From positions 3,586,501 through 3,650,500 of the forward strand of contig NZ_CP075189.1 of assembly GCF_020510565.1 (NCBI RefSeq): a stretch of DNA of 64,000 nt, written 5' to 3'. Source of the DNA: Ferribacterium limneticum. Lineage in GTDB: Bacteria > Pseudomonadota > Gammaproteobacteria > Burkholderiales > Rhodocyclaceae. Of this stretch, positions 7,254 through 63,506 are shown in pieces (the stretch's first letter is position 1; each line of letters opens with the position of its first letter). A model generated the notes under the pieces. That model had not been told where the DNA came from, searched no databases, and saw only the letters and a program-made list of their open reading frames with translations. The position numbers and the translations under genes were made by a program.

Positions 7254-8062
7254 TTTTTTGCTTCGAGTTGGTCGTAAACCGCCGTCGCCACTTTGGCCAG
7301 TTCGCCCTTGGCGGTGCTCGCCGACAGGGCGTAGCCGAATTTACCATCGACCCAGTAGAAAACGTTGACCTGCCCTTCGCGGGCGAAACGGAAGCCGGTT
7401 TCGGGCTGGGTTGCATTTTCGGTCGTCACGTACAGCGTCATGCGCTGGCCGGTGGCCTCCTGATACATGAACTGGGCGACCGGGCCGGCATTGCCGGGGA
7501 GCAGACGGCCGCCAACCAGTTCGTAACCGAGGGCGCCGAGTTTGGGCGGACTGACCGGGGTACCGAGACGTTTGGACAACCATTTGACCAGCGCCTCCTC
7601 CTGATCGGCCGTGACCTCAACGGGGCGGCGCGCATCGGGGCTGTAAACCACGTGGGCGACGGCGGCCTGTCGGGATAGCGGCACGACGACCTGCGCCATG
7701 TGTTCGGCGCTCTGGTACTGACCATGCCCCAGCCAACCAGCGACACCGCCGAGCGTGGCGACAACCACACCGGCGGCTATCTGCTGCAGCGGCCAGGATT
7801 TCAAATTTGGCCATTTTTTCCGGTTGACCGTGGCATTCACCGGTTGCACGGTCAGCGCCTGCAAATGGTCCGGCAAAGGCTCGACCAGCACCGGATTGAA
7901 CAACGCCTTGAGCGCCTCGTTCTGGGCGCGATAGGCGCGAACGCGTTCGGCGTCCTCGGGATAGAGAACCAGATAAGCTTCGATCTCGGCCCGCCGCGCT
8001 GGCGTCAAGGCGCCGTCGACGTAGGCGTGCAGGTCGTCTTCGGTGATATTGAGCGGGCTCAT
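7250..8062 (-). CDS. Membrane-anchored anti-sigma factor
   Basis: A 270-residue protein whose N-terminal 70 residues (ITEDDLHAYVDGALTPARRAEIEAYL) match the anti-sigma domain that clamps ECF sigma factors. It lacks the His-Cys-Cys zinc residues of ZAS proteins. One membrane segment (AAGVVVATLGGVAGWLGHG, about residues 96-114) follows, and the C-terminal 150 residues should lie in the periplasm as a sensor. Its start overlaps the sigma gene stop by 4 bases, so the pair is translationally coupled. The segment just before the membrane helix (TVNRKKWPNLK) is encoded by a copy of the dispersed 31-base motif. Confidence 0.88.
   Translation of the reverse strand: MSPLNITEDDLHAYVDGALTPARRAEIEAYLVLYPEDAERVRAYRAQNEALKALFNPVLVEPLPDHLQALTVQPVNATVNRKKWPNLKSWPLQQIAAGVVVATLGGVAGWLGHGQYQSAEHMAQVVVPLSRQAAVAHVVYSPDARRPVEVTADQEEALVKWLSKRLGTPVSPPKLGALGYELVGGRLLPGNAGPVAQFMYQEATGQRMTLYVTTENATQPETGFRFAREGQVNVFYWVDGKFGYALSASTAKGELAKVATAVYDQLEAKK
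7803..7833 (-). repeat. Dispersed uptake-signal-like motif, copy 1
   Basis: Read on the minus strand: core CCACGGTCAACCGG, A-tract AAAAAAT, GGCC, then AAATTT. It lies inside the anti-sigma factor gene, in the frame that encodes TVNRKKWPNLK, just before the membrane segment. It is a near-perfect copy. Confidence 0.85.
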
Positions 8063-8559
8063 CGTACAACCCTCAAATTGGCGCCAGACTGCCGGCCTTC
8101 CATGATCTGGCGCAAGCGTTCGCGTCCACGCGACAGGCGGGACATCACGGTGCCGATCGGAATGCCCAGCGCTGCGGCGATTTCGGCATAAGTCATTTCC
8201 TCCAGCCCGACGAGCAACAGCACTTCACGCTGGTCGTCCGGCAATTGGCGGAGGGCGGACTCGATATCCATCACTTCGAGCCGGTCGTTTTGGGTAGCGC
8301 GCGTCGGCACCTCGCAGGCATCGTCGTCGAGCGAATGGGTCGGCAAGCTGCCGCACCGCAGTTGGTCTACGCGCAGGTTGTGCATGATGCCGAACAGCCA
8401 GGCCCGCAAATCGCTGCCCGCCCGCCATTGAGCAAAGCGGTTCCAGGCGCGTTCAAGGGTGTCCTGCACGAGGTCGTCCGCCGCCGCGCGGTCGCCCAGC
8501 ATCGCCCGCGCGTAACGGCGTAGGCGAGGCAATTCGGCGATGATCGCGCGGCTGTCCAC
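8059..8559 (-). CDS. ECF-family RNA polymerase sigma factor
   Basis: A 166-residue alternative sigma factor. Region 2 is at residues 12-75 (ARAMLGDRAAADDLVQDTLE...RAWLFGIMHNLRVDQLR). Region 4 is at residues 105-155 (QLPDDQREVLLLVGLEEMTYAEIAAALGIPIGTVMSRLSRGRERLR), with the helix-turn-helix typical of extracytoplasmic-function factors. Regions 1 and 3 are absent, as expected. It is followed by its likely anti-sigma factor with a 4-base overlap, and starts 7 bases after the stop of a small lipoprotein gene. The whole set of four genes, ending with arfB, is probably one transcript. The inducing signal cannot be read from the sequence. Confidence 0.94.
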   Translation of the reverse strand: MDSRAIIAELPRLRRYARAMLGDRAAADDLVQDTLERAWNRFAQWRAGSDLRAWLFGIMHNLRVDQLRCGSLPTHSLDDDACEVPTRATQNDRLEVMDIESALRQLPDDQREVLLLVGLEEMTYAEIAAALGIPIGTVMSRLSRGRERLRQIMEGRQSGANLRVVR

Positions 8560-8566
8560 GGTCTGC

Positions 8567-8953
8567 TTAAGGTTTAGCTACGTGCCAAACGTTGTTGAAG
8601 CCGTCACCGGTCTTGTCACCGGCCTTCTGGTCCTTGGCCCAGAAATACAGTGGCTTGCCCTTGAAGGCCCATTGTTTCTTGCCATCGTCGCGGGTGACAA
8701 CACTGTAGTCGCCACTCGCCATGTCGCCATCCATGGCCATCAGCGGCGGCCAGTTGGCGGCGCACGGGCCGTTGCACATGCTCTTGCCGCTGCCGGCGGC
8801 ATCCTTGTCGAAGACATAAAGCGTCATGCCATTGCTGCCGGTCAGCATGCCATCCGACACCATGGCCGGCGCAGCGGCACGCGTACCGACACCTGAACAA
8901 GCCGCCAGCGTGGCCGACATGAGCAGCGTGAGAAGCAGGTTTTTCGTTTTCAT
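8567..8953 (-). CDS. COG4315-type lipoprotein
   Basis: A 128-residue predicted lipoprotein. The signal peptide ends in the lipobox LAAC (residue 19). The mature part carries two copies of the secreted beta-rich repeat of this family: MTLYVFDKDAAGSGKSMCNGPCAANWPPL and a second around GKPLYFWAKDQKAGDKTGDGF. Functions of this family are not established. It is the first gene of the sigma/anti-sigma/arfB operon, so it may be a target or a sensor partner of the ECF pair. The Cys pair in MCNGPC could form a disulphide in the periplasm. Confidence 0.88.
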   Translation of the reverse strand: MKTKNLLLTLLMSATLAACSGVGTRAAAPAMVSDGMLTGSNGMTLYVFDKDAAGSGKSMCNGPCAANWPPLMAMDGDMASGDYSVVTRDDGKKQWAFKGKPLYFWAKDQKAGDKTGDGFNNVWHVAKP

Positions 8954-9005
8954 GATGATCTCCGTTGGTTTTGGGGGGCTACACCAAGGTATACGGAAGA
9001 CGCAT

Positions 9006-10163
9006 TCAGTTTATTCCATCGGCCCGGCCGAGCCGCCACAACGAAGTCACCTCGGCGGCCCGTGCCGCGTGCAGCGGATCACTCGCATCCTGCGCCTTGG
9101 GATGTTTCGGCCGGGTATCGAGACGGGCTATGACTTTCAACCCGGCCATCTCGATCCAGCCGAGCAGCTTTTGCCGCGAGCGCAGGCCGAGGTGTTCGGC
9201 GATATCCGAAATAATCAGCCAGCCCTCGCCATCGACCTCCAGATGCGAGGCCAGACGACCGAGAAAACCGCGCAACATGCGCGAGTCCGGATCATAGACC
9301 GCGTACTCGACCGGCGAAGTCGGCTGCGCCGGCAACCACGGTGGATTGCACACAACCAGTTTCGCCCGCCCTTCCGGGAACAGATCGGTCTTCACAAGGC
9401 GGATTGCTGCGGTCAACCCCAATTTTTCGACATTTTCGGAGGCGCAAGCCAAGGCGCGCTCGTTCATGTCGGTCGCGACGATCTGCTTGACACCACGCCG
9501 GGCCAGAATCGCCGCGATGATGCCGGAACCGGTGCCGATATCGAAGGCCAGATCACAATTGGCCGGCAACGGCGCCTTGGCAACGAGATCGACATACTCC
9601 CCGCGCACCGGCGAAAACACGCCGTAATGCGGATAGATGCGCCCCTCCACTGCCGGCACCGGCACGCCCTTCTTGCGCCATTCGTGGGCGCTGACGACAG
9701 CCAGCAACTCGCGTAAAGACAGCACGGAATCCTCGCCAGTCGGCGGCCCGTAAGCCTCGACGCAAGCCTGCCGGACATCCTGCGCTCGCCGTAGCGGAAT
9801 GCTGTAATCGGCAGCGAGCGGCACCAGCAACAGGCCGAGCGCCTGCGCCCGTCGCCCCTGATTCCGGCGATGCAGATCGAATGCCTCGGCTGGCGTTGCC
9901 GGCTTTTTCTGGCTGCCCGACCGCGGTGGACGCTCGGCACGGCGACTCAAGCCCTGCAACAGATGGCGGGCGTTCTGCCAGTCGCCCCGCCACAGCATCG
10001 CCGTTCCCTCGCTGGCCAACTTCCAGGCAGCATCGACACTCAGGCGGTCATCGGCCACGACGACCTTGTCATGCGCCGGCAAGCCAGCCTCGGAGCGCCA
10101 GCGGGCGGATTTGGTCTCACTCCCTTCAAGCCAGGCGATAACAGGAAATTCAGTAGCAGTCAT
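9006..10163 (-). CDS. SAM-dependent methyltransferase (RlmG/RsmC/PrmC-like)
   Basis: A protein of about 385 residues with a class-I methyltransferase domain in its C-terminal half. Motif I is FDIGTGSGIIAAILARRG, followed by the acidic ATDMNERAL, and the catalytic motif is NPPW (LVVCNPPWLPAQ). NPPW/NPPY motifs are typical of enzymes that methylate exocyclic amines of guanine or adenine in RNA, or glutamine in proteins. The N-terminal half (about 150 residues) is not recognised and may be a degenerate methyltransferase-like or RNA-binding domain. Two neighbouring ATGs (10172 and 10163) are possible starts; neither has a clear ribosome-binding site. The exact substrate is not assigned. Confidence 0.8.
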   Translation of the reverse strand: MTATEFPVIAWLEGSETKSARWRSEAGLPAHDKVVVADDRLSVDAAWKLASEGTAMLWRGDWQNARHLLQGLSRRAERPPRSGSQKKPATPAEAFDLHRRNQGRRAQALGLLLVPLAADYSIPLRRAQDVRQACVEAYGPPTGEDSVLSLRELLAVVSAHEWRKKGVPVPAVEGRIYPHYGVFSPVRGEYVDLVAKAPLPANCDLAFDIGTGSGIIAAILARRGVKQIVATDMNERALACASENVEKLGLTAAIRLVKTDLFPEGRAKLVVCNPPWLPAQPTSPVEYAVYDPDSRMLRGFLGRLASHLEVDGEGWLIISDIAEHLGLRSRQKLLGWIEMAGLKVIARLDTRPKHPKAQDASDPLHAARAAEVTSLWRLGRADGIN

Positions 10164-10475
10164 GGGACGCATTGTAGGGCAGAAGCGCAACACCAATCGC
10201 GAGCCGCTCCGATGTGAATATGCCAATCAACGAAACTGTGAATTATTCGATAGTCGATAAAAGCACGCAGGTTAACAATGTCAGCGAATCAGCACATTCG
10301 TCGCAGTACTCACCCCCAGAGGATCAGCCCTGTGGCCATTTCGCCCCCCCTCCCCGCCAGCGGCATCATCGAATCAGCAACCGCATTTTTCGCAAGCAGC
10401 GAGTCAAAAAGCGTCCGTTCAACCCACAGTCCGAGACACCCGGCCAATCCTGACAACAACAAACAGGAACGTGCC
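10164..10475. other. Intergenic region between divergent genes, 312 bases
   Basis: This gap separates the minus-strand methyltransferase from the plus-strand Cds6-like gene. It is richer in A/T around 10205-10275, where promoters for either gene could lie, but I see no clear -35/-10 pair, tRNA or repeat. An in-frame extension of the downstream gene to 10278 is open, but its composition (many Ser, Arg, Pro) does not look like a conserved protein. Confidence 0.5.
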
Positions 10476-11138
10476 ATGGCACGCCGTCTTGAGCAATTAC
10501 AGGCAGCTCTGGGCGAACCGGACGCTTCGGGCACAGCAGCAGACCTCCCAAATACCCCGAAAACAAGCGACACCGGGAAATCCTTCGGGACTGGCTCCCT
10601 CATCCTCACCGCCCTGATTTCCGCCCTGTTTGGCGCAGGAATGATGTGGCTGGGCGCCCCTCACCAACAAGTTCCGGCCACCCCGCCCGTCCCCCTCCTG
10701 ACATTGACAGCGCCCCCGACGGTCGCACCGGCGCCTCCCGAGTCCGCATTGATTGCGCCAGCTACGACAGAAATTAGCGACAAGGCGCAGGTTGGCGAGC
10801 TATTGGCTGGCTGGCGAAACGCGTGGGCACAACGCGACATCGCGAACTACCTGAACGCCTATAGCCAGAAATTTACGCCCGCCGACGGCAGTTCGCGCGA
10901 GGCGTGGGCAGCCGCAAGAACAAAGAAACTCTCGGCCGGCGCCCCGATCGACATCCAGATCCGCGAGCTCGGCATCGAGCGCCTCAACGCCGATCAGTTC
11001 AAGGCCACCTTCCTGCAGGACTATGCCGCGGGCAGCTATCGGGAAATGGCGCGGACCAAGGTTCTGCTGGTCATCCGCGAAAATGGCGAATGGAAAATCG
11101 CCAAGGAATGGATGACTGAAAACAAGATCGCGATGTAA
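10476..11138 (+). CDS. Membrane-anchored protein with Cds6-like (NTF2-fold) domain
   Basis: A 220-residue protein: a short cytoplasmic N-terminus (MARRLEQLQAALGEPDASG), one membrane segment near residues 45-62 (GSLILTALISALFGAGMMWLG), a Pro/Ala-rich linker, and a C-terminal domain of about 110 residues (VGELLAGWRNAWAQRDIANYLNAYSQKF...). This last part resembles the NTF2-like domain found at the end of Cds6-type L,D-transpeptidase family proteins. No transpeptidase domain is present. The start at ATG 10476 has AGGAACG upstream. It is convergent with rnpB, with 21 bases between. A role at the cell wall is inference from the domain only. Confidence 0.75.
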   Translation: MARRLEQLQAALGEPDASGTAADLPNTPKTSDTGKSFGTGSLILTALISALFGAGMMWLGAPHQQVPATPPVPLLTLTAPPTVAPAPPESALIAPATTEISDKAQVGELLAGWRNAWAQRDIANYLNAYSQKFTPADGSSREAWAAARTKKLSAGAPIDIQIRELGIERLNADQFKATFLQDYAAGSYREMARTKVLLVIRENGEWKIAKEWMTENKIAM

Positions 11139-11159
11139 TGCGTAAAACGGTTCAGGATT

Positions 11160-17347: not shown

Positions 17348-18379
17348 TCAGAGCATTTTCCAGGACAGCGTTTCGCCAGCGCGCAGCGGAACGATCGTAT
17401 CAGTACTGATGTAGGGGTAGTCGGCCGGCACGGTCCAGTCCTGTTTGGCCAGCGTGATCTTGCCGCTGTTGCGCGGCAGGCCATACCAATCGGGGCCATT
17501 CAAGCTGGCGAAGGCTTCGAGCTTATCCAGCGCCCCGGCCTGTTCGAAGGCTTCGGCATAGAGCTCCATGGCGGCATAGGCGGTATAACAGCCGGCGCAG
17601 CCGCAGGCGGCCTCCTTGGCGCCCTTGGCGTGCGGCGCCGAATCGGTGCCGAGGAAGAATTTCGGATTGCCGGAAATCGCCGCGGCAACCAGTGCCTCGC
17701 GGTGCGTTTCGCGCTTGAGCACGGGCAGGCAGTACCAGTGCGGCCGGACGCCGCCCTGGAAGATGGCGTTGCGGTTGTAGAGCAGGTGATGGGCGGTGAT
17801 GGTCGCTGCCACGGTCAACCCGGAATTTTGCACAAAATCGGAAGCATCCTTGGTCGTGATGTGCTCCATGACCACCTTGAGCTGCGGAAAACGCTGAGTC
17901 AGCGGCAGCAGTACGGTATCGATGAAGACCTTTTCGCGGTCGAAGAGATCGATTTTCGGGTCGGTCACTTCGCCATGCACGAGCAGCGGCAGGCCGACGC
18001 GCTCCATTTCGGCCAGCGCGTCGTAGGCCTTGGCGATGTCGGTCAGGCCGGCGTCGGAATTGGTCGTCGCCCCGGCCGGGTAGAGCTTGACTGCCTTGAC
18101 GAAGCCGGAAGCGGCAGCCTTGGCGACTTCGCTGGCCGGCGTGTTGTCGGTCAGGTAGAGCGTCATGAGCGGCTCGAAGCTGGCGCCTGCCGGCAGCGCC
18201 GCGACGATGCGGTCACGGTAGGCGGCCGCCTGATCGACGGTGGTCACTGGCGGCTTGAGGTTGGGCATGACAATGGCCCGGCCAAACTGGGCGGCCGTGT
18301 GGGCAAGGACGGAAGCCAGGGCTTCGCCGTCGCGCAGGTGAAGGTGCCAGTCGTCGGGGCGAGTGATGGTGATCTGCAT
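17348..18379 (-). CDS. pyrC: Dihydroorotase
   Basis: Catalyses reversible cyclisation of N-carbamoyl-aspartate to dihydroorotate in pyrimidine synthesis. The 343-residue product is the E. coli PyrC type. The metal-binding HLHLRDG is at the N-terminus ([17 protein letters not shown]). The carboxylated Lys is in [17 protein letters not shown], and metal-binding histidines occur in LLVHGEV and [18 protein letters not shown] holds the catalytic Asp. The ATG at 18379 begins at the conserved N-terminus; a longer upstream frame is not conserved. Residues [14 protein letters not shown] include a copy of the dispersed 31-base motif. Confidence 0.96.
17809..17840 (+). repeat. Dispersed uptake-signal-like motif, copy 2
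   Basis: Plus strand: core CCACGGTCAACC with one extra C, then CGG, AATTTT, GCAC and AAAATCG. It lies within pyrC (minus strand), in the frame reading [10 protein letters not shown]. Core and both A/T tracts are present. Confidence 0.75.
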
Positions 18380-20434: not shown

Positions 20435-20797
20435 ATGCAGGCAAAGACCAACGATACCACCACGACGCGCGGCCGCGAAGCCGAAGAGCGGGCGGCGCGT
20501 TATCTCGAATCCCACGGTCTACCGGAAATTTCGCGCAATTTCAGAATCCGCGGCGGCGAAATCGACCTCATTTGCCGCGACGGCAAGGTGCTGGTTTTCG
20601 TCGAAGTCCGCCAGCGCAGCCGCAGCGACTTCGGCGGGGCCGGGGCGAGCATCACAGCGAGCAAGCGGCGGCGCATCATCCTCGCCGCCCAGCACTACCT
20701 GCTCGGCAAGCGGGATTGCGATTGCCGTTTCGACTGCGTGCTGATCGATGGCGACCAGCTCGAATGGATAAAAAATGCGTTTTCTGCTGACGATTAG
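20435..20797 (+). CDS. yraN: YraN (UPF0102) family protein
   Basis: A 120-residue protein of the UPF0102 family, which has a restriction-endonuclease-like fold. The core GGEIDLICRDGKVLVFVEVR contains the D...E-x-R pattern equivalent to a PD-(D/E)XK site, followed by ASKRRRIILAAQHYL. Relatives are proposed to be Holliday-junction or structure-specific nucleases, but the function is not settled. ATG 20435 begins MQAKTNDTTTTRGREAEERAARYL. The last 23 bases overlap the start of the next, HIRAN, gene, so the two are translationally coupled. Confidence 0.93.
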   Translation: MQAKTNDTTTTRGREAEERAARYLESHGLPEISRNFRIRGGEIDLICRDGKVLVFVEVRQRSRSDFGGAGASITASKRRRIILAAQHYLLGKRDCDCRFDCVLIDGDQLEWIKNAFSADD

Positions 20798-22475: not shown

Positions 22476-24293
22476 TCAGTGCACGCCGAAAGCCTGTGGC
22501 AACCAGGTCGCCAGGAAAGGCAGCGCCGAAATGATCAACGCCCCGATGAACATGGCGAACACCGCCGGCAAGACTGCGGCGGCGACATAACGGATCGGCT
22601 TGGCGAACATCGCCGAGGCGAAATAGATGTTCATGCCGGCCGGCGGGCAGAGAAAACCCATCTCGATATTGGCCAGGAAAATCACCCCAAAGTGCACCGG
22701 ATCGATGCCGTAGGCGAGCGCCACGGGCAACAGCAGCGGGACGAGAACGACGATGGCCGCGTAGATTTCCATCAAGGCCCCGGCCAGCAGCAGGAAGAGG
22801 TTCAGGGCAATCAGGAAGGCGAACTTGTTGGGCAGCACCGACTGCACCCATTCGATGGCCGCATCGGGAATGCCGGCATCGACGAGGTAGTTGGTCAGGC
22901 CGAGCGCCATGCCGAGGATGAGCATGATGCCGCCGATGACTTCGGCGCAATCAACCAGCGTTTTCCGGAAATGCGGCCAGTCGAGTTCGCGATGCGCGAT
23001 GGACTGCGTGAGCAGCGCGTACATGGCCGTCAGCGCGGCGCTCTCGGTCGGCGTGGCGATGCCGCTGACCAGTGAGCCGATGGCGACGACCGGCGCCAAC
23101 AACTCCCATTTGGCGACCCACAGGGCGCTACCCAGACTTTTCGTTTTTGGCTCTTTTTCCCGGTTGACCGTAGCAATGCCGCCCCGCCGCAAATAACCGC
23201 CGACCAACAGCAGGCAGGCAACCATGAGCACCGCCGGCAGCACGCCGGCGAGGAACATGGTGTTGATCGGCACGCGGGCGATGATGGCGTACATGATCAG
23301 CGGCACCGACGGCGCCAGCAGCACGCCGAGGGCGCTGGCGCTGGTCACCAGGCTGATGCCGCGCTGTTCGGGGAAGCCGGCCTTGGTCAGCAGGGGCAGG
23401 AGCAGGCCGCCGAGAGCCAGAATGGTGACGCCGCTACCGCCCGTGAAGGCGGTGAAGAAGGAACAAAGCACCGCCGCGGCAATCGCCGTACCGGCCACGC
23501 CGCTGCCGAACGCAGCCGTGAACACCTCGCCGAGTCGGGCCGCCGCGCCGGTCCGGGCGAAGAGCAGGCCGGCCAGCGTGAACAGCGGCAACGCCGGCAA
23601 CGAAGGATTGACGGTAATCTGGTAGTGGCTGAGCGGCACCGAAGCGAGCGGCTGGCCTTCGCTCCAGAACAGCGCCAGGGCCAGCCCGCCGAGCACGGCG
23701 AAGATCGGCGCGCCGCAGAAGAGGATCAGCGTCAGCCACAGGGCGAAGGGCCAGATCGGCAAGCTGCTGCCGTCGAAATGCTGGGCGAAGGCGTAGCCGG
23801 CGGCTGGCAGGGCCAGCGCCAGGGCGACGCGGCCGGCCAGGTTGGGCGTGATGCGTGAGGCGAGTTTGAGGCCAAGCAGCGCGAAGCCGACCGGCATGGC
23901 GATTTCGAACATCCAGCCGGCGATGCCGTAGGCGATGTCGCGCGGCATTTCCATTTCCGTGGTGACGAAAGTCCAGCTGGCCTGCGCCAGCATGCCGCAG
24001 AGCACGGCGGCGCTGGCCTTGCCGAAAACCACCGCGCTATTGCGGACGAGCGGATTGGTCGAGGCGGTGAAGCCGGCACCGAGCGCACTCAGGTGCAGGC
24101 CGCGTTCGGCGAGCAGCGCCCCGAACATGGCGAGCAACAAGCCGCAGTGCTGGACGAGCACCGGCGCATTATCGATGCCCGAGCCGAACAGCGGGCGCAG
24201 AACGATTTCAAGCAGCGGCACGAGCAGCATGACGAGCAGCGCGCCACCAGCAATCAGCGCATCGAATTCACCGAGACGGCGCCAGGGATTCAT
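22476..24293 (-). CDS. TRAP transporter fused small and large permease (DctQM)
   Basis: A 605-residue inner-membrane protein. Residues 1-165 form the four-helix DctQ part (FDALIAGGALLVMLLVPLLEIVLRPLFG...). From about residue 175 the DctM large permease follows, with some twelve membrane helices and the typical LPALPLFTLAGLLFARTG, GVTILALGGLLLP and PPAGMNIYFASAMF blocks. TRAP systems use sodium or proton gradients to take up carboxylates or similar acids. It is downstream of dctP and tatT in a minus-strand operon. A cytoplasmic loop (IATVNREKEPKTKS) is encoded by a copy of the dispersed motif. Confidence 0.93.
   Translation of the reverse strand: MNPWRRLGEFDALIAGGALLVMLLVPLLEIVLRPLFGSGIDNAPVLVQHCGLLLAMFGALLAERGLHLSALGAGFTASTNPLVRNSAVVFGKASAAVLCGMLAQASWTFVTTEMEMPRDIAYGIAGWMFEIAMPVGFALLGLKLASRITPNLAGRVALALALPAAGYAFAQHFDGSSLPIWPFALWLTLILFCGAPIFAVLGGLALALFWSEGQPLASVPLSHYQITVNPSLPALPLFTLAGLLFARTGAAARLGEVFTAAFGSGVAGTAIAAAVLCSFFTAFTGGSGVTILALGGLLLPLLTKAGFPEQRGISLVTSASALGVLLAPSVPLIMYAIIARVPINTMFLAGVLPAVLMVACLLLVGGYLRRGGIATVNREKEPKTKSLGSALWVAKWELLAPVVAIGSLVSGIATPTESAALTAMYALLTQSIAHRELDWPHFRKTLVDCAEVIGGIMLILGMALGLTNYLVDAGIPDAAIEWVQSVLPNKFAFLIALNLFLLLAGALMEIYAAIVVLVPLLLPVALAYGIDPVHFGVIFLANIEMGFLCPPAGMNIYFASAMFAKPIRYVAAAVLPAVFAMFIGALIISALPFLATWLPQAFGVH
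23143..23173 (-). repeat. Dispersed uptake-signal-like motif, copy 3
   Basis: On the minus strand: CTACGGTCAACCGGG, then AAAAAG, AGCC and AAAAACG. It lies within the TRAP permease gene in the frame ATVNREKEPKTK, a loop between membrane helices. The second core base is T instead of C. Confidence 0.8.
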
Positions 24294-27130: not shown

Positions 27131-27178
27131 CGGTGAAACGATCCGGGCTCGGGCTTGGGTGCTTGAATAGTGGATTTC

Positions 27179-27209
27179 ATTTTTGGCCATTTTTTCCGGT
27201 TGACCGTGG
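27179..27209 (-). repeat. Dispersed uptake-signal-like motif, copy 4
   Basis: Minus strand: CCACGGTCAACCGG, AAAAAAT, GGCC, AAAAAT. It is intergenic, 62 bases upstream of the LysR-type start. This is one of the two best copies and lies outside any coding region. Confidence 0.9.
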
Positions 27210-27271
27210 AACCCACCTCGGCGTTAAACTATCGCTTACCAAACACCCAAAAAACCCGAGCGACCCTGAAC

Positions 27272-39326: not shown

Positions 39327-41381
39327 ATGACGACCGCCAATCCCCTGCTCGATTTCTCCGACCTGCCGCGTTTTGACACCGTTCAGCCCGAACACGTCAA
39401 ACCGGCCATCGAATCGCTATTGACCGCCGGCCGCGAGCTGATCGAACGCCTGACCGCCGACACCACCCCGGCCACCTGGCAGGACTTTGCCGGTGCGCTA
39501 TCCGATGGCCTGGAGCCGTTCGGCCGCGCCTGGGGCATCGTCGGCCACCTGCATTCGGTCAATGACATTCCCGCCTGGCGCGAGGCTTACAACGAGATGC
39601 TGCCGGAAGTCTCGCGCTTCTACGCCGAACTCGGCCAGAACCTCAAGCTGTTCGAGAAATACAAGGCGCTGCGCGACAGCGCCGAATACGCCACGCTGAG
39701 CGTCGAACAGAAAAAGGTCGTCAACAACGAAGTGCGCGATTTCCGCTTGTCCGGCGCCGAATTGCCGGATGACCAGAAGCCGCGCTTCCAGGCGATCATG
39801 GAAGAACTGTCGCAGCTCTCGGCCAAGTTCGCCGAAAACCTGCTCGACGCGACCAACGCCTTCGCTGAAATCGTTACCGACGAAGCTGTGCTCGCCGGCC
39901 TGCCCGACGATGCCAAGGAAGCCGCCAAGACCGCCGCCGAGAAAGCTGGCGTCGAGGGCTGGCGTTTCAGCCTGCAAGCCCCGTCCTACGGCCCGGTCAT
40001 GCAGTACGCCGACAACCGCGAGCTGCGCGCCCGCATGTACCGCGCCTACGCGACGCGCGCCGCCGAATTCCACGATGGTTCGAGCAAGCCGGAATGGGAC
40101 AACACGCCGATCATCCAGCGCATGCTTGAACTGCGCGTCGAAGATGCGAAGATGCTCGGCTTCAACAATTTCGCCGAAGTGTCGCTGGCCCCGAAAATGG
40201 CCGACACGCCGGCCCAGGTGCTCGCTTTCCTGCGTGAACTCGCGGCCAAGGCCAAGCCGTTTGCCGAGAAGGACATCGCCGAACTGCGCGCCTTCGCCAA
40301 GGATGAACTCGGCCTGACCGACTTCCAGCCATGGGATGCGGCCTACGTTTCGGAAAAGCTGCTGCAGGCCCGCTACGCTTTCTCCGAGCAGGAAGTGAAG
40401 CAGTATTTCACCGAGCCCAAGGTGCTGGGCGGCCTGTTCAAGGTCATCGAGAGCCTGTTCAACGTCAAGGTCAAGCCCGATACGGCGCCGGTCTGGCACG
40501 AGGATGTCCGTTTCTACCGGCTGGAAAGCCCGGCCGGCGATCTGGTCGGCCAGTTCTACCTCGACCTTTACGCCCGCGAAACCAAGCGCGGCGGCGCCTG
40601 GATGGACGAAGCCCGCTCACGGCGCCGGGTGCTCAACGGCATTCAGAAGCCGATTGCCTACCTCAATTGCAACTTCTCGCGACCGAACGGCGGCAAACCG
40701 GCGACTTTCACGCACGACGACGTCACCACGCTGTTCCACGAAACCGGCCACGGCCTGCACCATCTGCTGACGCGCGGCGAAGAACTCGGCGTTTCGGGCA
40801 TCCACGGCGTCGAATGGGATGCCGTCGAACTGCCGTCGCAGTTCATGGAAAACTATTGCTGGGAATGGGAAGTGGTCGAGGGCATGACGGCCCACGTCGA
40901 TACCGGAGCCACCTTGCCGCGCGAACTGTTCGACAAGATGCTGGCCGCCAAGAACTTCCAGAGCGGCATGATGGCCGTGCGCCAGATCGAGTTCTCGCTG
41001 TTCGACATGCTGATCCATTCCGATTTTGACCCGAAATCCGGGTTGACCGTGATGGACGTGCTCAAGGACGTGCGCAAGGAAGTCGCCGTACTGCTGCCGC
41101 CGGAATGGCACCGTTTCCCGAACAGTTTTTCGCACATTTTCGGCGGCGGTTACGGGGCGGGCTATTTCAGCTACAAATGGGCCGAAGTGCTGTCGGCTGA
41201 CGCCTATGCGGCCTTCGAAGAGGCTGGAAATCCGTTCGATGCGACGGTCGGCAAGCGCTTCCTCGACGAAATCCTGTCGGTCGGCGGCTCGCGCCCGGCC
41301 ATCGAGTCGTTCAAGGCTTTCCGTGGTCGCGAACCGAGCGTCGATGCACTGCTTCGTCATAGCGGTATGATTGCGGCTTAA
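39327..41381 (+). CDS. prlC: M3-family oligopeptidase A
   Basis: A zinc metallopeptidase degrading short peptides in the cytoplasm, 684 residues. The HEXXH zinc site appears as FHETGHGLHHLL near residue 472, and the third zinc ligand glutamate follows in GVEWDAVELPSQFMENYCWE. The N-terminal half is helical and typical of the M3 family. E. coli OpdA/PrlC is the likely equivalent. The segment SDFDPKSGLTVMDV is encoded in part by a weaker copy of the dispersed motif. It lies 20 bases before a small exported glutaredoxin-like gene. Confidence 0.94.
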   Translation: MTTANPLLDFSDLPRFDTVQPEHVKPAIESLLTAGRELIERLTADTTPATWQDFAGALSDGLEPFGRAWGIVGHLHSVNDIPAWREAYNEMLPEVSRFYAELGQNLKLFEKYKALRDSAEYATLSVEQKKVVNNEVRDFRLSGAELPDDQKPRFQAIMEELSQLSAKFAENLLDATNAFAEIVTDEAVLAGLPDDAKEAAKTAAEKAGVEGWRFSLQAPSYGPVMQYADNRELRARMYRAYATRAAEFHDGSSKPEWDNTPIIQRMLELRVEDAKMLGFNNFAEVSLAPKMADTPAQVLAFLRELAAKAKPFAEKDIAELRAFAKDELGLTDFQPWDAAYVSEKLLQARYAFSEQEVKQYFTEPKVLGGLFKVIESLFNVKVKPDTAPVWHEDVRFYRLESPAGDLVGQFYLDLYARETKRGGAWMDEARSRRRVLNGIQKPIAYLNCNFSRPNGGKPATFTHDDVTTLFHETGHGLHHLLTRGEELGVSGIHGVEWDAVELPSQFMENYCWEWEVVEGMTAHVDTGATLPRELFDKMLAAKNFQSGMMAVRQIEFSLFDMLIHSDFDPKSGLTVMDVLKDVRKEVAVLLPPEWHRFPNSFSHIFGGGYGAGYFSYKWAEVLSADAYAAFEEAGNPFDATVGKRFLDEILSVGGSRPAIESFKAFRGREPSVDALLRHSGMIAA
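41022..41051 (-). repeat. Dispersed uptake-signal-like motif, copy 5 (degenerate)
   Basis: On the minus strand CACGGTCAACCCGG, then ATTTC, GGGTC, AAAATCG. It resembles copy 2, including the extra C, but the proximal tract is weak. It is within the M3 peptidase gene, so chance similarity is possible. Confidence 0.5.
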
Positions 41382-42647: not shown

Positions 42648-43316
42648 ATGAATTCCACGGTCAACCGGGAAAAAGTGCTGAATTTGTACCCGGCGCTGCG
42701 CGGCCTGCCAGCCGACCGGCTCGCCGCCCTGCTCCCGCCACAGGCCATCATGCAGCTACCGGCCGGCACCCAGGTTTTTGCCGAACACCAGCCCTGCCAG
42801 GGCTTCCCGCTGCTGCTCGAAGGCAGCATCAAGGTCATCAAGCTGGCCGCCAGCGGCCGCGAACTCATGCTCTACCGCGTCGCGCCCGGCGGCTCGTGCA
42901 TCATTTCATCGAGCTGCCTGCTCGGCCACACCGACTACAACGCCCGCGGCATCGCCGAAACGCCGCTCACCCTGCTCGCCCTGCCGGTCGGCGCCTTTGC
43001 TGCGTTGATGGTCGAGCACGCCCCGTTCCGCGATTTCGTCTTTCACCTGTTCGCCGACCGCATCGGCGAACTCATGCAACTGGTCGAGGAAGTCGCCTTC
43101 GCCCGCCTCGATCAGCGACTGGCCAAACTGATCCTGGCCCGCAATGAAACGGTGCTCGGCGTCACGCACCAGCAACTGGCCGACGAACTGGGCAGCGTCC
43201 GCGAAATCGTCAGCCGCCTGCTCAAAGGTTTTGCCGAGCAGGGTCTGGTCACGCTGGGCCGCGAACAGCTGACGGTAACCGACCGCGCCGGTCTGCAAAA
43301 ACTCGCTGCTGTGTGA
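42648..43316 (+). CDS. Crp/Fnr-family transcriptional regulator
   Basis: A 222-residue regulator: a cyclic-nucleotide-binding-like N-terminal beta-roll (FPLLLEGSIKVIKLAASGRELMLYRVAPGGSC), a dimerisation helix (FADRIGELMQLVEEVAFARLDQRLAKLI) and a C-terminal helix-turn-helix (VTHQQLADELGSVREIVSRLLKGFAEQGLV). Cysteines in GGSCIISSSCLLG and near HQPCQGF could serve redox or iron-sulphur sensing, but no classic Fnr cluster motif is seen. ATG 42648 is directly behind xth. Residues 3-13 (STVNREKVLNL) are encoded by a dispersed-motif copy. A DUF2892 gene follows and is a likely target. Confidence 0.92.
   Translation: MNSTVNREKVLNLYPALRGLPADRLAALLPPQAIMQLPAGTQVFAEHQPCQGFPLLLEGSIKVIKLAASGRELMLYRVAPGGSCIISSSCLLGHTDYNARGIAETPLTLLALPVGAFAALMVEHAPFRDFVFHLFADRIGELMQLVEEVAFARLDQRLAKLILARNETVLGVTHQQLADELGSVREIVSRLLKGFAEQGLVTLGREQLTVTDRAGLQKLAAV
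42655..42686 (+). repeat. Dispersed uptake-signal-like motif, copy 6
   Basis: Plus strand: CCACGGTCAACCGGG, AAAAAG, TGCTG, AATTT. It lies at codons 3-13 of the Crp-type regulator gene, in the same frame (TVNRE) as copies 1 and 3. Confidence 0.8.
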
Positions 43317-43620: not shown

Positions 43621-43638
43621 CATGGGTCCGAACATTTC

Positions 43639-43669
43639 AATTTCGGGCATTTTTTACGGTTGACCGTGG
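43639..43669 (-). repeat. Dispersed uptake-signal-like motif, copy 7
   Basis: Minus strand: CCACGGTCAACCGT, AAAAAAT, GCCCG, AAATT. It is intergenic, between the DUF2892 terminator and the rsmA stop, comparable to uptake signals that often sit near terminators in Neisseria and Haemophilus. Confidence 0.88.
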
Positions 43670-43677
43670 GATTCTCG

Positions 43678-44454: not shown

Positions 44455-45440
44455 TGTTTTTTCCTTGTGGCCATGCGCGCGGCTTCGGCGACGGCTTCGA
44501 ACAGGCTGCCCGGATCGGCCTTGCCGGTGCCGGCCAGTTCGAGCGCCGTGCCGTGATCGACCGAGGTGCGGATGATGGGCAGGCCGAGCGTGACGTTGAT
44601 GCCTTTGCCGAAGGTGGCGTACTTGAGGGCGGTCAGGCCCTGGTCGTGGTACATGGCGAGCACGGCATCGCCCTGGGCGAGGATGGGCGGCGTGAACATG
44701 GTGTCAGCCGGATATGGGCCGGACAGTTGCATGCCTTCGCCACGTAGCTTTTCGAGCACCGGCGTGATGACTTCGATTTCTTCCATGCCGAGGTAACCAC
44801 CTTCGCCGGCATGCGGGTTGAGACCGGCGACGAGGATGCGCGGCTGCACGATGCCGTACTTGCCGCGCAGATCGGCATGGAGGATGCGCAATGTTTTTTC
44901 CAGCACCTCGGAGGTGATGGCCGCCGAGACGTCCTTGAGCGGCAGATGCGTGGTGGCCAGCGCAACGCGCAGCGGGCCGCGCTCGGTGTCGCCGGCCAGC
45001 ATCATGACGACGAGTGGCGTTCCGGTCTTGTCGGCAAGGTATTCGGTGTGGCCTGTGAAATGCACGCCGGCGTCGTTGATGACGCCTTTATGCACCGGCG
45101 CCGTCGCCATCGCGGCAAATTCGCCGGACTGGCAACCGGCCAGGGCGCGGTCGAGCAGCGCCAGCACGTAGGGGCCGTTTGCGGCATCGAGCTGGCCAGC
45201 TTGCGCGGGTACGGCGAGCGGAATGTGGATAACGGGTAGACTGCCACGGTCAACCGGAATTTTCGGCGAAAAATCGACAATGCGAACCGGCAGCCCGAGC
45301 GCGGCTGCCCGCGCTTCAAGCAGATTGCGGTCACCAAGAATGACCGGCTGGGCATCGCCTTCATAGCCGGCCAGACGCAGGCAGAGCTCCGGACCGATGC
45401 CGGCCGGCTCGCCGCTGGTCACGGCTATGACCGGGGGCAT
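44451..45440 (-). CDS. pdxA: 4-hydroxythreonine-4-phosphate dehydrogenase
   Basis: NAD-dependent enzyme of pyridoxal-phosphate synthesis. The 329-residue product has [12 protein letters not shown] at the N-terminus, the metal-binding histidines in [33 protein letters not shown] and the C-terminal [18 protein letters not shown] 45440 overlaps the surA stop (TGATG); a GTG one codon earlier is also open. The segment [14 protein letters not shown], variable in the family, is partly encoded by a motif copy. Confidence 0.96.
45244..45275 (+). repeat. Dispersed uptake-signal-like motif, copy 8
   Basis: Plus strand: CCACGGTCAACCGG, AATTTT, CGGCG, AAAAATC. Within pdxA (minus strand), reading as [10 protein letters not shown]. 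Core is perfect and both A/T tracts are present. Confidence 0.85.
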
Positions 45441-49393: not shown

Positions 49394-52394
<3,001 letters not shown>

Positions 52395-52402: not shown

Positions 52403-53540
52403 GCCCGTTGTCGAAAACGTCGACATCCTGATCATCGGCGCCGGCCCGGTCGGCATGACCCTGCATCTGGCGCTCGCCGCCGGCGGTCAGAAATCGCTGC
52501 TCATTGACCGTCGACCGCAGCAAGCTCAGCAAGACGACCCGCGCGCCCTCGCACTGTCGCACGGCGCCCGCCAGTTGCTGGAACAGATCAACAGCTGGCC
52601 GACGCGCGCCGCGACGCCGATCGAAACCATCCACATCTCGCAAAAGGACGGTTTCGGCCGGACGCTGATCGACCACCGGGAATACGACCTGCCCGCCCTC
52701 GGCTACGTCGTCCGCTACCGCGATCTGGCCGGTGCGCTGGCAAAAAACCTGGCCGCCGATGCCGTGCTCGCCGAAGCAGAAATCCTCGACATCACGCCCG
52801 ACGACGACGGCGTCACGGTAGCGCTGCGCCATGCCGGCCAGTTGCGCACCATCCGGACCAAGCTGCTCGTCCACGCCGAAGGCACGCCCGGCGACGATCC
52901 GGCCGTCAAGGTCAGCGACTACGAACAGCATGCCGTTATCTGCGAAGTCACCCCAACGCCGGGCCACAACAAGCGCGCCTGGGAACGCTTCACCCCCGAC
53001 GGCCCGCTCGCCCTGCTGCCGCTCGGCGACGAATTCTCCATCGTGTTCACCCTGCCGCCAGCCAAGGCCGACGCCGTCATGGCGATGGACGACGACACCT
53101 TCATTGCCGCCCTGCAACAACAGTTCGGCCAACGCCTGCGCTTCGCCAAGCCCGGCATACGCAGCCGCTTCCCGCTCTTTCTTCGCCTGCGCGGCACCCT
53201 GGTCAAGGGCAACGAAGTGTGGATCGGCAACACGGCGCAAACCCTGCACCCTGTCTCCGGCCAAGGCTTCAACCTCGGCATCCGCGACGCCTGGCAACTA
53301 TCCGAAATTTTGCTCAAAAACGGCGTTGACCGTAGCAATCTGGCCACCTACGCCGCCAGTCGCCGCCTCGACCGCCGCGCCAGCGCCTTCTTCACCGACC
53401 AGATCGTCCGCACCTTCTCCAACGACTTCGCCCCGCTCAAACTCGCCCGCGGCCTCGGTCTGCTCGCCCTCGACATCTGCCCGCCGGCCCGCCATTTCGT
53501 CGCCAAGCGCATGATCTGGGGCGCCCGCGCCTGGCCTTGA
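52395..53540 (+). CDS. ubiH: UbiH/UbiF/VisC-type FAD monooxygenase
   Basis: A flavin hydroxylase of ubiquinone synthesis, 381 residues. The FAD-binding site is ILIIGAGPVGMTLHLALAAGG, and the conserved GNTAQTLHPVSGQGFNLGIRDAW (about residues 275-297) is the signature of this family. Position next to pepP recalls E. coli pepP-ubiH-ubiI. The ring position hydroxylated cannot be decided by eye, so the symbol is by family. A motif copy underlies LLKNGVDRSNLA. The start overlaps pepP by 8 bases. Confidence 0.88.
53304..53335 (-). repeat. Dispersed uptake-signal-like motif, copy 10 (degenerate)
   Basis: Minus strand: CTACGGTCAACGCCG, TTTTTGAGC, AAAATTTC. Within the ubiH-like gene, reading LLKNGVDRSN. 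The core diverges after CAAC, so this is one of the weakest copies. Confidence 0.55.
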
Positions 53541-58699: not shown

Positions 58700-58711
58700 G
58701 GACTCAGGGCG

Positions 58712-60346: not shown

Positions 60347-60355
60347 AAACACAAA

Positions 60356-61258
60356 ATGAGCATAGACACCGCCCAGCTGAAAACCTATTTCACGGGACTG
60401 CAAGCCTGCATCGTCGCCGAACTTGAAGCCTTCGATGGCCAGCCTTTCCGCACCGATTCATGGGAGCGCCCGGAAGGCGGCGGCGGCATTTCGCGGCTGA
60501 TCGAGGAAGGTGGTTTCTTCGAGCGCGGCGGCGTCAATTTCTCGCACGTCACCGGTTCGTCGCTACCCGCCTCGGCCACCGCCGTCCGTCCGCAACTGGC
60601 CGGCCGCGCCTGGGAGGCGATGGGTGTTTCGCTCGTTCTCCATCCGCGCAATCCGTACTGCCCGACAGCGCACATGAATGTGCGCTGCTTCGTCGCCCGT
60701 AAGGAAGGCGAAGAGGATGTCTGGTGGTTCGGTGGCGGCATGGACATGACGCCTTACTACGGTCAAACGGAAGATGTGGTCCATTTTCACCAGACCTGCA
60801 AGGATGCGCTGGCGCCGTTCGGCGACGAGGTCTATCCGAAGTACAAGAAGTGGTGTGACGAGTATTTCTTCCTCAAGCACCGCAACGAGCCGCGCGGCGT
60901 CGGCGGCGTGTTTTTCGACGACCTCAACGAAGGCAGTTTCGAGCGCTGTTTCAACCTGACCCAGGCTGTAGGCAACGCGTTCACCCAAGCCTATCTGCCG
61001 GTCCTGGCCAAACGTCGCGACACGCCTTACGGCGAGCTCGAACGCGATTTCCAGGCCTACCGCCGCGGGCGTTACGTCGAGTTCAATCTGGTCTGGGATC
61101 GCGGTACCTTATTCGGCCTGCAATCGGGCGGCCGCACCGAATCGATCCTGATGTCGATGCCGCCGATCGTCAAATGGCGCTACGACTGGCAACCGGAAGC
61201 CGGCACGCCTGAAGCCGAACTCTACGAAGTCTTTCTCAAACCGCAGGACTGGGTTTGA
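60356..61258 (+). CDS. hemF: Oxygen-dependent coproporphyrinogen III oxidase
   Basis: Converts coproporphyrinogen III to protoporphyrinogen IX with oxygen. The 300-residue product has [26 protein letters not shown] and the C-terminal [36 protein letters not shown] 60356 follows the cyclase gene by 9 bases. It is convergent with hemY, so haem genes of both strands meet here. Confidence 0.96.
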
Positions 61259-61261
61259 GAT

Positions 61262-61286
61262 AAAAAGCCAGGCGCCAGCGGCGCCT
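61262..61286 (-). terminator. Terminator hairpin overlapping the hemY stop
   Basis: AGGCGCC (61270-61276) pairs with GGCGCCT (61280-61286). On the minus strand it is followed by GGCTTTTTATC, so it fits termination of the hemDXY transcript. Confidence 0.65.
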
Positions 61287-62469
61287 AGCGGGCGTCGAGC
61301 AGGGCGCTGGCGCGGTAGTGCTTGTTGGCTTCTTCGGCCCGGTCGAGCTGGTCGAACAGCCGGGCCAGTTCGAGGTGGCCCTGTTGCGAAGGGGCGACCG
61401 ACAAGGAAGCTTCGAGATAGCTTTGCGCCTTGCCCCACAGGCGCTGGCGGATGCACATGCGGCCTAGCGCCTTGAGCAGGCGGGCGTCGTCCGGGTGCTG
61501 GCGTAACCAGCCCTCAGCCTTGGCGATGCGGGCGGTCTGCTCATTGTTGGTCAGGCGGCCGTAAATGGCCACCAGCTCGGGTTGCCACTCTTCGTTTTTC
61601 ACCGCATCGAGCACGGATTCAATCAGTTTCTGTGCTTCGGCCTCGGCCCCCAGGGCGACCAGTGCTCGTGCCGCAGCGAGGACGACACGACGGCCGCGCT
61701 CGTCTTCGGGCACCGTGCGCAGATAGGTAGTCAGTTTTCCCTGATCAGCGACGCGTTTGGCGATGTTGCCGAGATGGGCCTGCGTGCGGATTTCGCTAAC
61801 CACTTCGACCGGCAGCGCGTCGCGCTTGACCAGTTGACGAGCCAGCTTGAGCACGCCGTCCCAGTCGCCGACGCCCTGACGGGCACGCAACTCGAGACGC
61901 AGCGCCGCGATGTGGCGGCCCTGCTTGCCCTGCAGTTTTTCGAGGGCGGCCAGCGCTTCGTCGAAACGACGCGCTTCGTTGGCCATTTCGGCATCGAGCA
62001 TGAGCGTTGCCGCTTCGGTGCGCGGGTCATCGGTCTTGGCGTGTTCGAGCCAGTATTGCTGCTTTTCCGGCTCGCGCATGCGCTGGGCGGCGCGGGCGGC
62101 GATCAGTGCCGAGAGGCCGGGCGCGGTGCCGGCCCCGTGGGCTTCCGTCGCCTTTTTGAGCGCCTGGCCGAAACGGCCTTCAAAGAGCAGACGAACGGCG
62201 TCCTGAAAAACCAGGCCGGCGCTTTCACGCTGGCGCTGGGCGCGGTATTCACGGACGCGTTTCGGCAAGCCGAAGGTTACCGCCAGCGCCCGCGTTCCGG
62301 CGTAGAGCACGAAGAACAGGGTGAGCAGCGCGATGATGAAGAGATTGAGCGAGACCTCGGCCCGCCACGGCGGAAAAACCACGAGCACGTAGCCATCGTT
62401 ATAGCGGGCGCCGAGCGCGACGGCGACGGCCAGGCCGCACAGGGCGACAATCCAGAACAGCCCTCTCAC
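61285..62469 (-). CDS. hemY: HemY-like TPR membrane protein
   Basis: A 394-residue protein of the haem-biosynthesis-associated HemY family (not the B. subtilis oxidase of that name). Two membrane helices occupy the N-terminus (FWIVALCGLAVAVALGARY and LNLFIIALLTLFFVLYAGTRAL); the rest is TPR-type helical repeats (GEARRFDEALAALEKLQGKQGRHIAALRLELRARQG... and RLLKALGRMCIRQRLWGKAQSYLEASLSV). It overlaps hemX by 4 bases. Biochemical role is uncertain; a scaffold for haem enzymes has been suggested. Confidence 0.92.
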   Translation of the reverse strand: MRGLFWIVALCGLAVAVALGARYNDGYVLVVFPPWRAEVSLNLFIIALLTLFFVLYAGTRALAVTFGLPKRVREYRAQRQRESAGLVFQDAVRLLFEGRFGQALKKATEAHGAGTAPGLSALIAARAAQRMREPEKQQYWLEHAKTDDPRTEAATLMLDAEMANEARRFDEALAALEKLQGKQGRHIAALRLELRARQGVGDWDGVLKLARQLVKRDALPVEVVSEIRTQAHLGNIAKRVADQGKLTTYLRTVPEDERGRRVVLAAARALVALGAEAEAQKLIESVLDAVKNEEWQPELVAIYGRLTNNEQTARIAKAEGWLRQHPDDARLLKALGRMCIRQRLWGKAQSYLEASLSVAPSQQGHLELARLFDQLDRAEEANKHYRASALLDAR

Positions 62470-63506
62470 CGCTTTTCCTTGCCCGGACGCAGGTTGCGCA
62501 AGGCCGCCTGAGTTTCATTGAGAGTCGGCAGCTCGACGTTGATTTCACTTGCCGTCATCTGGCGCAGCGTGGTCTGGGCCGTCTGCACAGCCTTGTCGTT
62601 GCCGTCGAAATGGCGTGTCAGCATGTCCTGCGCGGCTTTGAGCTCGTTGCGATAAGTCCATTGATCGCGCGCAAACAAGGCGAGGCGGGCATTGAGCAGG
62701 CGCAGCTTTAGATTTTCACGGAGCAGGTAGCCCTGACCGGGCGCCAGCAGCGCCACGTCCTCGCGGTCGAAGCGCTGGATGCGAATCAGCCCCTTCATTT
62801 CCTGCCAGATGGCGCCGCCGGTGCGTTCCCACCACGATTGCGCGCCCGCAGCCTTTTCATTTTCGGCCGTTTTTCCCGGTCGACCGTGGGAAACCAGCGG
62901 CAGCTTGTCGACACCGACCAGCACCTGTTCCAGGCGCAGGCTGATGCCCGGCATATCGACGAAAGGCAGGGCGTTGAGACGGGCCAGATCCTTGGCCAGC
63001 GCCTTGCGCAGGGCCAGGTGAGCCGGACGGTCGAGGCGGGCCAGCTGGGCATCAGCAGTTTGCAGCGCGAGCACGGCGACCGGCAGATTGCCGGCCAGTT
63101 GCAATTGCTGCCCGGCGAGCACGATGGCCTGCTCGACTTCAATCAGGGCAAGCTCTTCGCGGCTGCGCGCAATGTCCTGATAGAGCGCTTGTAGGGTCGC
63201 TGACTGGGCCTGGAATTCGGCAATCTTGCCATCGACGGCGCCGAGGCGGGCCTGCAGTGCTTCGACCTGTTCACGCGACTGTTTCTGGGCGCCGCGGTCC
63301 TCCTTGTTGCCGGTGTCGAACTCGGCCAATTTCTGGCTGACTTCCTGCTGGACATCGAGCAGCTTCTGGCGGGTTTCAAACCACTGCCAGCCGGCCAGCG
63401 CCAGCGCGGCTATCGCTACAAACAGCCACGGACTGATCTTTTTGGCGCGCGGCGCCGGGAGATAAGTCATCGTGGTCGGGGAGGGATTTTCGTTTTCGGG
63501 CATCAT
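62466..63506 (-). CDS. hemX: HemX-family membrane protein
   Basis: A 346-residue protein of the HemX family, annotated in some genomes as uroporphyrinogen-III C-methyltransferase but lacking that enzyme's fold. A Pro-rich start (MMPENENPSPTTMTYLPAPRAKKI), one membrane helix (WLFVAIAALALAGWQWFE, about residues 25-42) and a long coiled coil (LLDVQQEVSQKLAEFD...EQVEALQARLGAVDGKIAEFQ) make up the protein. ATG 63506 overlaps the hemD stop. A motif copy encodes SHGRPGKTAENEK in its central linker. Confidence 0.9.
   Translation of the reverse strand: MMPENENPSPTTMTYLPAPRAKKISPWLFVAIAALALAGWQWFETRQKLLDVQQEVSQKLAEFDTGNKEDRGAQKQSREQVEALQARLGAVDGKIAEFQAQSATLQALYQDIARSREELALIEVEQAIVLAGQQLQLAGNLPVAVLALQTADAQLARLDRPAHLALRKALAKDLARLNALPFVDMPGISLRLEQVLVGVDKLPLVSHGRPGKTAENEKAAGAQSWWERTGGAIWQEMKGLIRIQRFDREDVALLAPGQGYLLRENLKLRLLNARLALFARDQWTYRNELKAAQDMLTRHFDGNDKAVQTAQTTLRQMTASEINVELPTLNETQAALRNLRPGKEKR
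62859..62889 (-). repeat. Dispersed uptake-signal-like motif, copy 11
   Basis: Minus strand: CCACGGTCGACCGGG, AAAAAC, GGCC, GAAAAT. Within hemX in the frame HGRPGKTAEN, different from the TVNRE frame of copies 1, 3 and 6. One core base differs (TCGAC for TCAAC). Confidence 0.8.

Follow-up and report, generated by a model that had tools for sequence, protein, structure and literature searches.

Several hundred copies of an element of about 41 bp are scattered over the chromosome of Ferribacterium limneticum, and from their sequence and distribution we consider it likely (probability about 0.8) that they serve a competent lineage of the Azonexus/Dechloromonas type as a DNA-uptake signal. The starting point was a 64-kb stretch, here called the window (bases 3586501-3650500 of the single 4,150,051-base contig), in which an initial annotation had described eleven copies of a core followed by two A/T tracts and had proposed either an uptake signal or a nucleoid or chromosome-organisation site. 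At the level of sequence, the element proves to be genus-limited, strand-neutral, dialect-forming, short of close neighbours and changing by substitution at several orthologous places. The first of the two proposals is supported by the counts, the scarcity of close neighbours, the equal use of both strands, the dialects, the avoidance of promoters and the fact that sites come and go by substitution.

Results

The 14-mer core CCACGGTCAACCGG, at no more than one mismatch, occurs 582 times in the whole 4.15-Mb genome (286 forward and 296 reverse), whereas the control, for which a word or matrix was read reversed, gave 5 matches (2 + 3). A general pattern that covers all dialects (CGGTCRAC-N4-W4-N7-W4) matches this genome 758 times, against 2 in the control. 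High genome-wide counts and a spread beyond a few local copies, on which the initial annotation had made its inference depend, were both borne out, the spread across the genome and, as described below, across the genus. To score sites we built a weight matrix, with a cut-off of more than 16 bits, from a genome sample that consisted of the window and 40 stretches of 20 kb placed along the chromosome, together 864 kb or 21% of the genome. This sample holds 182 matrix sites, 93 on the plus and 89 on the minus strand, and the reversed matrix found none; by scaling up, there should be about 870 per genome. The 12-mer core was found 70 times without and 73 times with a single mismatch (control, 1 and 11).

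With the first base of the core numbered 0, the element extends from −5 to +35 and contains about 47 bits of information. Its parts are, in order, GATTn, the core CCACGGTCAACCGG, YGGCC framed by two A/T tracts (at 14-19 and 25-30) and, last, GAAAT. Among 130 matches in this genome unselected for tracts, the A/T fraction is 0.84-0.99 at 14-19 and 0.72-0.98 at 25-30, and the tracts are centred at 16.5 and 27.5, that is, 11 bp apart, as expected from the earlier claim of one-turn spacing. The initial annotation had mentioned neither the GATT element upstream of the core (T at −2 in 124 of the 130) nor a further short A tract, the third, at 32-35. About two turns separate the upstream T-rich element from the first tract, and the core is nearly palindromic (CGGTcaACCG).

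Sites are distributed more evenly than by chance, with a mean of 4.2 and a variance of 2.8 per 20-kb stretch, below the Poisson expectation. When overlapping matches were merged (179 sites, 140 gaps), only 11 gaps were shorter than 1 kb, where 30.6 ± 4.4 were expected; a count as low as this did not occur in 2000 simulations. No strand bias by replichore was found in the sample, the plus strand having 53 of 111 sites ahead of the turn in GC skew and 40 of 71 beyond it, nor was there an origin-terminus trend in the 41 sampled stretches. Two stretches are empty and two have one site. One of the empty stretches (L045, 20 kb) carries F-type conjugation genes (TraC, TrbI and TraN) and a one-site stretch (L049) contains a phage tape-measure gene, but the emptiness of the other (L044), in which there is at least a GGDEF/EAL gene, is not explained by conjugation genes.

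We related the 182 sites to genes called in the sample by a codon-usage script (786 genes with approximate starts). Ninety-five lie in coding sequence, 76 between genes and 11 at gene edges, whereas random placement would put 85.5, 10.9 and 3.7% in these classes. The coding sites comprise 62 in sense and 33 in antisense orientation, with 42 in a single sense frame. Seventy-three of the intergenic sites have a predicted gene on each side: 28 lie between convergent genes (an excess, with 10.3 expected), 37 between tandem ones (43.4 expected) and 8 between divergent ones (a deficit, with 19.3 expected; p = 5e-9). The median score is 44 bits for coding and 59 bits for intergenic sites, as expected if amino-acid constraint limits the former.

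Within the genus, 43 of 76 genomes have at least 39 copies of the general pattern, the limit that we chose to divide motif-rich from motif-poor genomes, while 9 have 10-38 and 24 fewer than 10. Outside it, each of 992 genomes, drawn from larger groups, has 0-6 copies: 0-5 in 386 genomes from other families of the order, 0-5 in 241 genomes from 67 other genera of the family and 0-6 in 365 genomes elsewhere in the class. The named near relatives of the LptD gene of the window include Azonexus and Dechloromonas. Among the other genera of the family, three copies stand within 2.7 kb in one genome (G540:C150:38771-41480) and five occur in another (G495); this DNA may have come from the genus that bears the motif.

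When stretches of seven other genomes were scanned for k-mers, a sister word, TGCGGTC(G/A)AC, appeared in the congeners G008, G020 and G024 and was not found in the congener G018 or in three other families. Among hits unselected for tracts, G020 has both A/T tracts and G008 a clear second and a weak first tract, at the same distances as in our genome. The core consensus is CCACGGTCAACCGG in the latter and TGCGGTCGAC-, CGCGGTCGAC- or TCACGGTCGAC-like in the sampled congeners. When GGTCRAC words were selected for tracts, the cores were TCACGGTCGACC in G042, GTCGCGGTCGACC in G024, GTTGCGGTCGAC in G020 and CTGCGGTCGAC in G008, G064 and G076 (8-23 sites each). The tracted share of such words exceeds that of motif-poor G018 (1/70) in six of seven genomes (p < 0.05); in G076 it is 8/98 (p = 0.08 against G018). 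CGGTCRAC and the distances of the tracts are common to all dialects. Unrelated words are over-represented in genomes of other families, AACGACAAAG with CGCCTTTAAC and TTTTTAGAGG with TAATAGAAAA in stretches L215-L219 (G028) and L209-L214 (G039), and are possibly other dispersed repeats; in stretches L031-L038 of our own genome the 10-mers CGGCGTCACC (26 against 1.1 expected) and ACCAGCTACA (14 against 0.1) are also over-represented, perhaps from a repetitive gene.

In a ComEC tree with 20 of 30 loci, the labels motif-rich and motif-poor are interleaved (six changes, three of them forced) and no more clustered than when shuffled. Deep support in this tree is weak, and the interleaving suggests that the trait was probably lost or gained repeatedly within the genus.

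We compared 23 sites with their orthologs in 136 alignments, which are not mutually independent. The 45 orthologs with the general motif have a site identity of 0.907 against 0.876 in the flanks (site higher in 36 of 45), whereas the 91 without it have 0.659 against 0.790. Twelve of these 91 motif-less alignments are gap-free for 50 bp on each side. The site in pdxA (45238-45279, plus strand, 44.3 bits) aligns gap-free over 736 bases with an ortholog (L087) that has no motif, and the site in a nucleotidyltransferase gene (50758-50799, minus strand, 59.9 bits) is identical in L079, L080 and L093, with cores swapped in place in L083, L085 and L097 (CCA to CTG, TGA or CTA). The case is clearest at locus L278, where a site at 4959-5000 lies in a 935-residue frame with isoleucyl-tRNA synthetase domains; in orthologs that all align without gaps it reads CCACGGTCGAC in G056, G074, G073 and G002, CTGCGGTCGAC in G003 and CCGCGGTCGAC in G064, and it is missing from motif-poor G041. 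A second site in the same gene (6386-6427) is found in eight genomes and is absent, again without gaps, from G041 (L297) and G018 (L339). Since the motif is present in some gap-free orthologs and absent from others, a part at least of the ordinary sites is gained or lost by substitution without insertions or deletions.

Seven sites of our genome are double, all of them intergenic by the script's gene calls. In four (L033 11016, L048 12819, L056 11346 and L067 10134) an identical 18-mer, GTTTACTACGTGAAACGT, stands between the core and the first tract, and in three (L046 10551, L048 11463 and L060 11481) a second core follows 19 bp on, before the first tract, with an identical linker, GCTTG. Judged by eye, the sequence that they share ends where the motif ends, and GTTTACTACGTGAAACGT resembles a decayed second core. 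Composites were not found in smaller samples of relatives; GTTTACTACGTGAAACGT has no exact match in viral contigs, and a composite site used as a query found nothing in plasmids.

The initial annotation had suggested a search for competence genes, and such genes are present, namely comEC and ComP/FimT-like minor pilins, but no ComP-like receptor could be linked to the motif. ComEC is encoded in 71 of the 76 genomes of the genus, including 51 of 51 good ones. One cluster of our genome contains a fimT-like gene (GspH domain), pilW, pilX, a pilY1-like gene and a pilin matching PF16732 (ComP_DUS); the names pilV and pilY1 in this cluster are assigned by position. A ComP-like pilin is not supported as the obvious receptor, as the strength of the PF16732 match is unrelated to motif richness and the pilE and fimT genes differ between two genomes of one dialect. 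The best matches to HHH_3 (PF12836) fall in frames of about 800 residues, presumably Tex-like, and so give no clean test of ComEA. Elsewhere in our genome (755001-775000), two tandem major-pilin-like genes (L328 9067-9435 and 9745-10080) differ at their C-termini.

In several congeners comEC is split near residue 245-265 (L280 2811-5530 and L283 2311-3870 in G002; L281 2914-5634 and L282 2157-3716 in G079; L284, L286 and L287). The halves in G002 and G079 lie about 32-34 kb apart, and an open reading frame that by eye resembles a serine recombinase adjoins the N-terminal half. Given the distant halves and this reading frame, an integrative element appears to target comEC.

All eleven copies listed for the window in the initial annotation are where it had placed them, on both strands. 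Ten have 0-2 mismatches to CCACGGTCAACCGG, and the eleventh (53300-53341, minus strand, 28.0 bits) has the core CTACGGTCAACGCC and retains CGGTCAAC and both A/T tracts. At up to three mismatches the 14-mer matches the window 23 times, against 8.6 ± 3.3 in shuffled sequence (0 of 100 shuffles reach 23). The weight matrix finds 14 sites, namely the eleven and three that had not been listed: a good one at 20506-20547 (core CCACGGTCTACCGG, 43.6 bits), a weaker one at 9401-9442 (core CTGCGGTCAACCCC, 24.9 bits) and a weak motif-like site at 60751-60792 within the coproporphyrinogen oxidase gene (20.8 bits), all on the plus strand. Among the listed copies, that at 7798-7839 (minus strand, core and A/T tracts) scores 66.5 bits, and others are at 17803-17844 (plus, 42.2 bits) and 23138-23179 (minus, 57.0 bits). 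Two coincide with predicted gene starts, themselves uncertain: one at a LysR-type gene (27174-27215, minus, 61.4 bits), where the site is possibly upstream of the gene, and one at a Crp-family gene (42649-42690, plus, 42.7 bits). The copy at 43634-43675 (minus, 58.2 bits) is intergenic between convergent predicted genes, and those at 41017-41058 (minus, 28.7 bits) and 62854-62895 (minus, core CCACGGTCGACCGG, 53.3 bits) lie within the M3 peptidase gene and a HemX-family gene, respectively. The 13 site-bearing genes of the window that we scanned are mostly ordinary chromosomal ones (PdxA, HemX, coproporphyrinogen oxidase, M3 peptidase, DctM and others).

Discussion

If the element is an uptake signal, a receptor on the cell surface, in all likelihood a minor pilin of type IV, would contact the CGGTC(A/G)AC core together with the A/T tracts, which are one turn apart, and thereby start uptake. 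Tagged fragments would enter and recombine more often, so mutations that improve a site would spread, and sites would accumulate in sequence that is free to change. The pattern expected from such a process would be that seen in the sequences, in which sites are abundant, strand-neutral and sparse in neighbours, in excess between genes but away from divergent promoters, altered by substitution and divided into species dialects.

Several observations weigh against an uptake signal. Gaps longer than 8 kb are not reduced (13, with 14.4 expected), so the evenness amounts to a shortage of close neighbours, and the density of about 0.21 sites per kb is below the approximately one per kb given for the uptake signal sequence (USS) of Pasteurellaceae and the DNA uptake sequence (DUS) of Neisseriaceae in the passages seen of PMC1626085. 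Most motif-less ortholog alignments (77/91) are gapped inside the site and are uninformative as to substitution or insertion. The PF16732 pilin is present in 70 of the 76 genomes and does not track the motif, strong and weak matches being 21 and 21 in motif-rich and 18 and 10 in motif-poor genomes (Fisher p = 0.33). The dialect CCACGGTCAACCGG occurs both in our genome (582 copies) and in G002 (637), and yet their pilE and fimT genes differ in the stretches compared. Damage to comEC is associated with motif poverty in the expected direction but not significantly: disrupted genes occur in 3 rich and 6 poor genomes and intact ones in 34 and 22 (p = 0.16), with 11 ambiguous genomes excluded, disruption inspected in G002, G079, G050, G091, G018 and G059, and G005, G075 and G090 classed by match table. 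G002 retains 673 motif copies despite its split comEC. Finally, the identical linkers make the composites look copied rather than mutated, which suggests occasional copying that a simple drive model would not predict.

A bolder version of the uptake reading, which we hold to be improbable as a whole, is that the element represents a third bacterial family of uptake signals, environmental and Haemophilus-like, whose inner CGGTCAA would be shared through receptors related by descent or transfer. On this proposal the receptor would lie outside pilE/fimT, given that these genes differ between two species with one dialect.

The second proposal of the initial annotation, under which the chromosome would be spaced or looped by a nucleoid or segregation protein of the genus that recognises the motif, is disfavoured, and we regard it as unlikely. 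The shortage of close neighbours and the 47 bits could suit an architectural protein, and the near-palindromic core a dimeric binder. However, sites such as KOPS (FtsK orienting polar sequences) and matS show strand bias by replichore or a trend towards the terminus, whereas strands here are balanced and no trend is seen in the 41 stretches. For an essential chromosome function it would be odd that dialects differ among congeners and that the copy number is below 39 in 33 of the 76 and below 10 in 24 of these; the accumulation of sites in unconstrained sequence fits drive better. A replication-oriented site is rejected on strand and density in the sampled stretches.

It is also very unlikely that the element is a tiny dispersed mobile repeat, like repetitive extragenic palindromes or miniature inverted-repeat transposable elements, that spreads by copying. 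The strong consensus would fit, as would the seven intergenic composites with their identical 18-bp inserts or linkers that end, by eye, at the motif borders; the gap-free pairs of orthologs with and without the motif inside genes (L087; L297 of G041 and L339 of G018 against L278) and the copies within genes in both sense and antisense orientation argue otherwise. A transcription terminator or regulator-binding site, to which the convergent excess (28 against 10.3) might point, is hardly credible with 95 of 182 sites inside predicted genes, oppositely oriented neighbours no closer than 151 bp (the next pair being 534 bp apart) and divergent regions avoided (8 against 19.3); a promoter or regulator site is rejected on gene context in the sample. 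A self-mark that an enzyme of DNA repair or defence would read, such as a Chi-like site or a site of modification, would account for a motif abundant in the chromosome and absent from one sampled conjugative region, but Chi-type sites are short and strand-biased, and an element of about 41 bp that is strand-neutral and A/T-tracted makes this most improbable.

Pasteurellaceae and Neisseriaceae are mostly host-associated, and Dechloromonas-type bacteria include perchlorate reducers and denitrifiers. If the element is an uptake signal, it would be a third case, in a genus with rich, poor and differently tuned species side by side. It could then be used to test spread by uptake bias alone, shifts of dialect, co-evolution with the receptor and whether a core plus two tracts is a recurring solution, and it might also be of practical use as a tag in the transformation of these Dechloromonas-type bacteria.

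In the passages cited here, uptake signals are described for Pasteurellaceae and Neisseriaceae only, and a literature search, which did not cover preprints or most subscription journals, found no uptake sequence described for Rhodocyclales, Rhodocyclaceae, Azonexus or Dechloromonas in the parts of the sources seen. The DUS is, in those parts of PMC3630211, an abundant word (GCCGTCTGAA) that is limited to one lineage and has several dialects, and in those of PMC1626085 it lacks flanking motifs. The element described here is likewise an abundant word of a single lineage with several dialects, in a genome that has a pilin matching the ComP_DUS model (PF16732), but its core is unrelated and is flanked by tracts. 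A word of the GCCGTCTGAA type is not among the 14 top 10-mers of eight stretches (160 kb) of our genome, in which GCCGTCTGAA was not counted genome-wide. With respect to the pilins FimT, ComP and ComN (PpdA), our genome has a FimT-like and a PF16732 pilin in an operon with pilW and pilX, but no link of such pilins with motif or dialect was found here.

The likeness to the USS is closer. According to the passages seen of PMC1626085 and PMC1939737, the USS of Pasteurellaceae has a 9-bp core, two A/T tracts, a strong consensus, a mutational origin, no orientation bias and dialects by subclade; Karlin et al., cited in PMC1939737, reported even spacing, which PMC1939737 itself describes as not even enough for a compaction site. 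As in the USS, a short core is followed here on its 3' side by two A/T tracts about one turn apart, with a strong consensus, no orientation bias, dialects and at least some sites that arise by mutation; the spacing, too, is even in that close neighbours are scarce. Perfect and single-mismatch copies of the H. influenzae USS number 1471 and 764 in the part of PMC1939737 seen, a ratio more extreme than ours. The element differs from the USS in family, in its outer core, in its longer conserved extent (−5 to +35) and in its lower density, and neither USS core, Hin AAGTGCGGT or Apl ACAAGCGGT, equals ours or those of the sampled congeners. The second tract of the Hin-type USS is centred 12 positions after the first (cited passages of PMC1626085, PMC1939737, PMC3630211, PMC7811141 and PMC12616744), and in our alignment the first tract of the present element begins about 5-6 bp, or half a turn, further from CGGTC. 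The extended USSs AAAGTGCGGTCAATTTT and AACAAGCGGTCAAATTT (in the passages seen of PMC12616744) share CGGTCAA with our core, which we treat as a lead only, given the probability of about 1-3% that a random word shares 7 bases with them. Since core, tract register and lineage all differ, the element is, judged by sequence, a member of neither the USS nor the DUS family, and it resembles the USS in most of the respects visible at this level.

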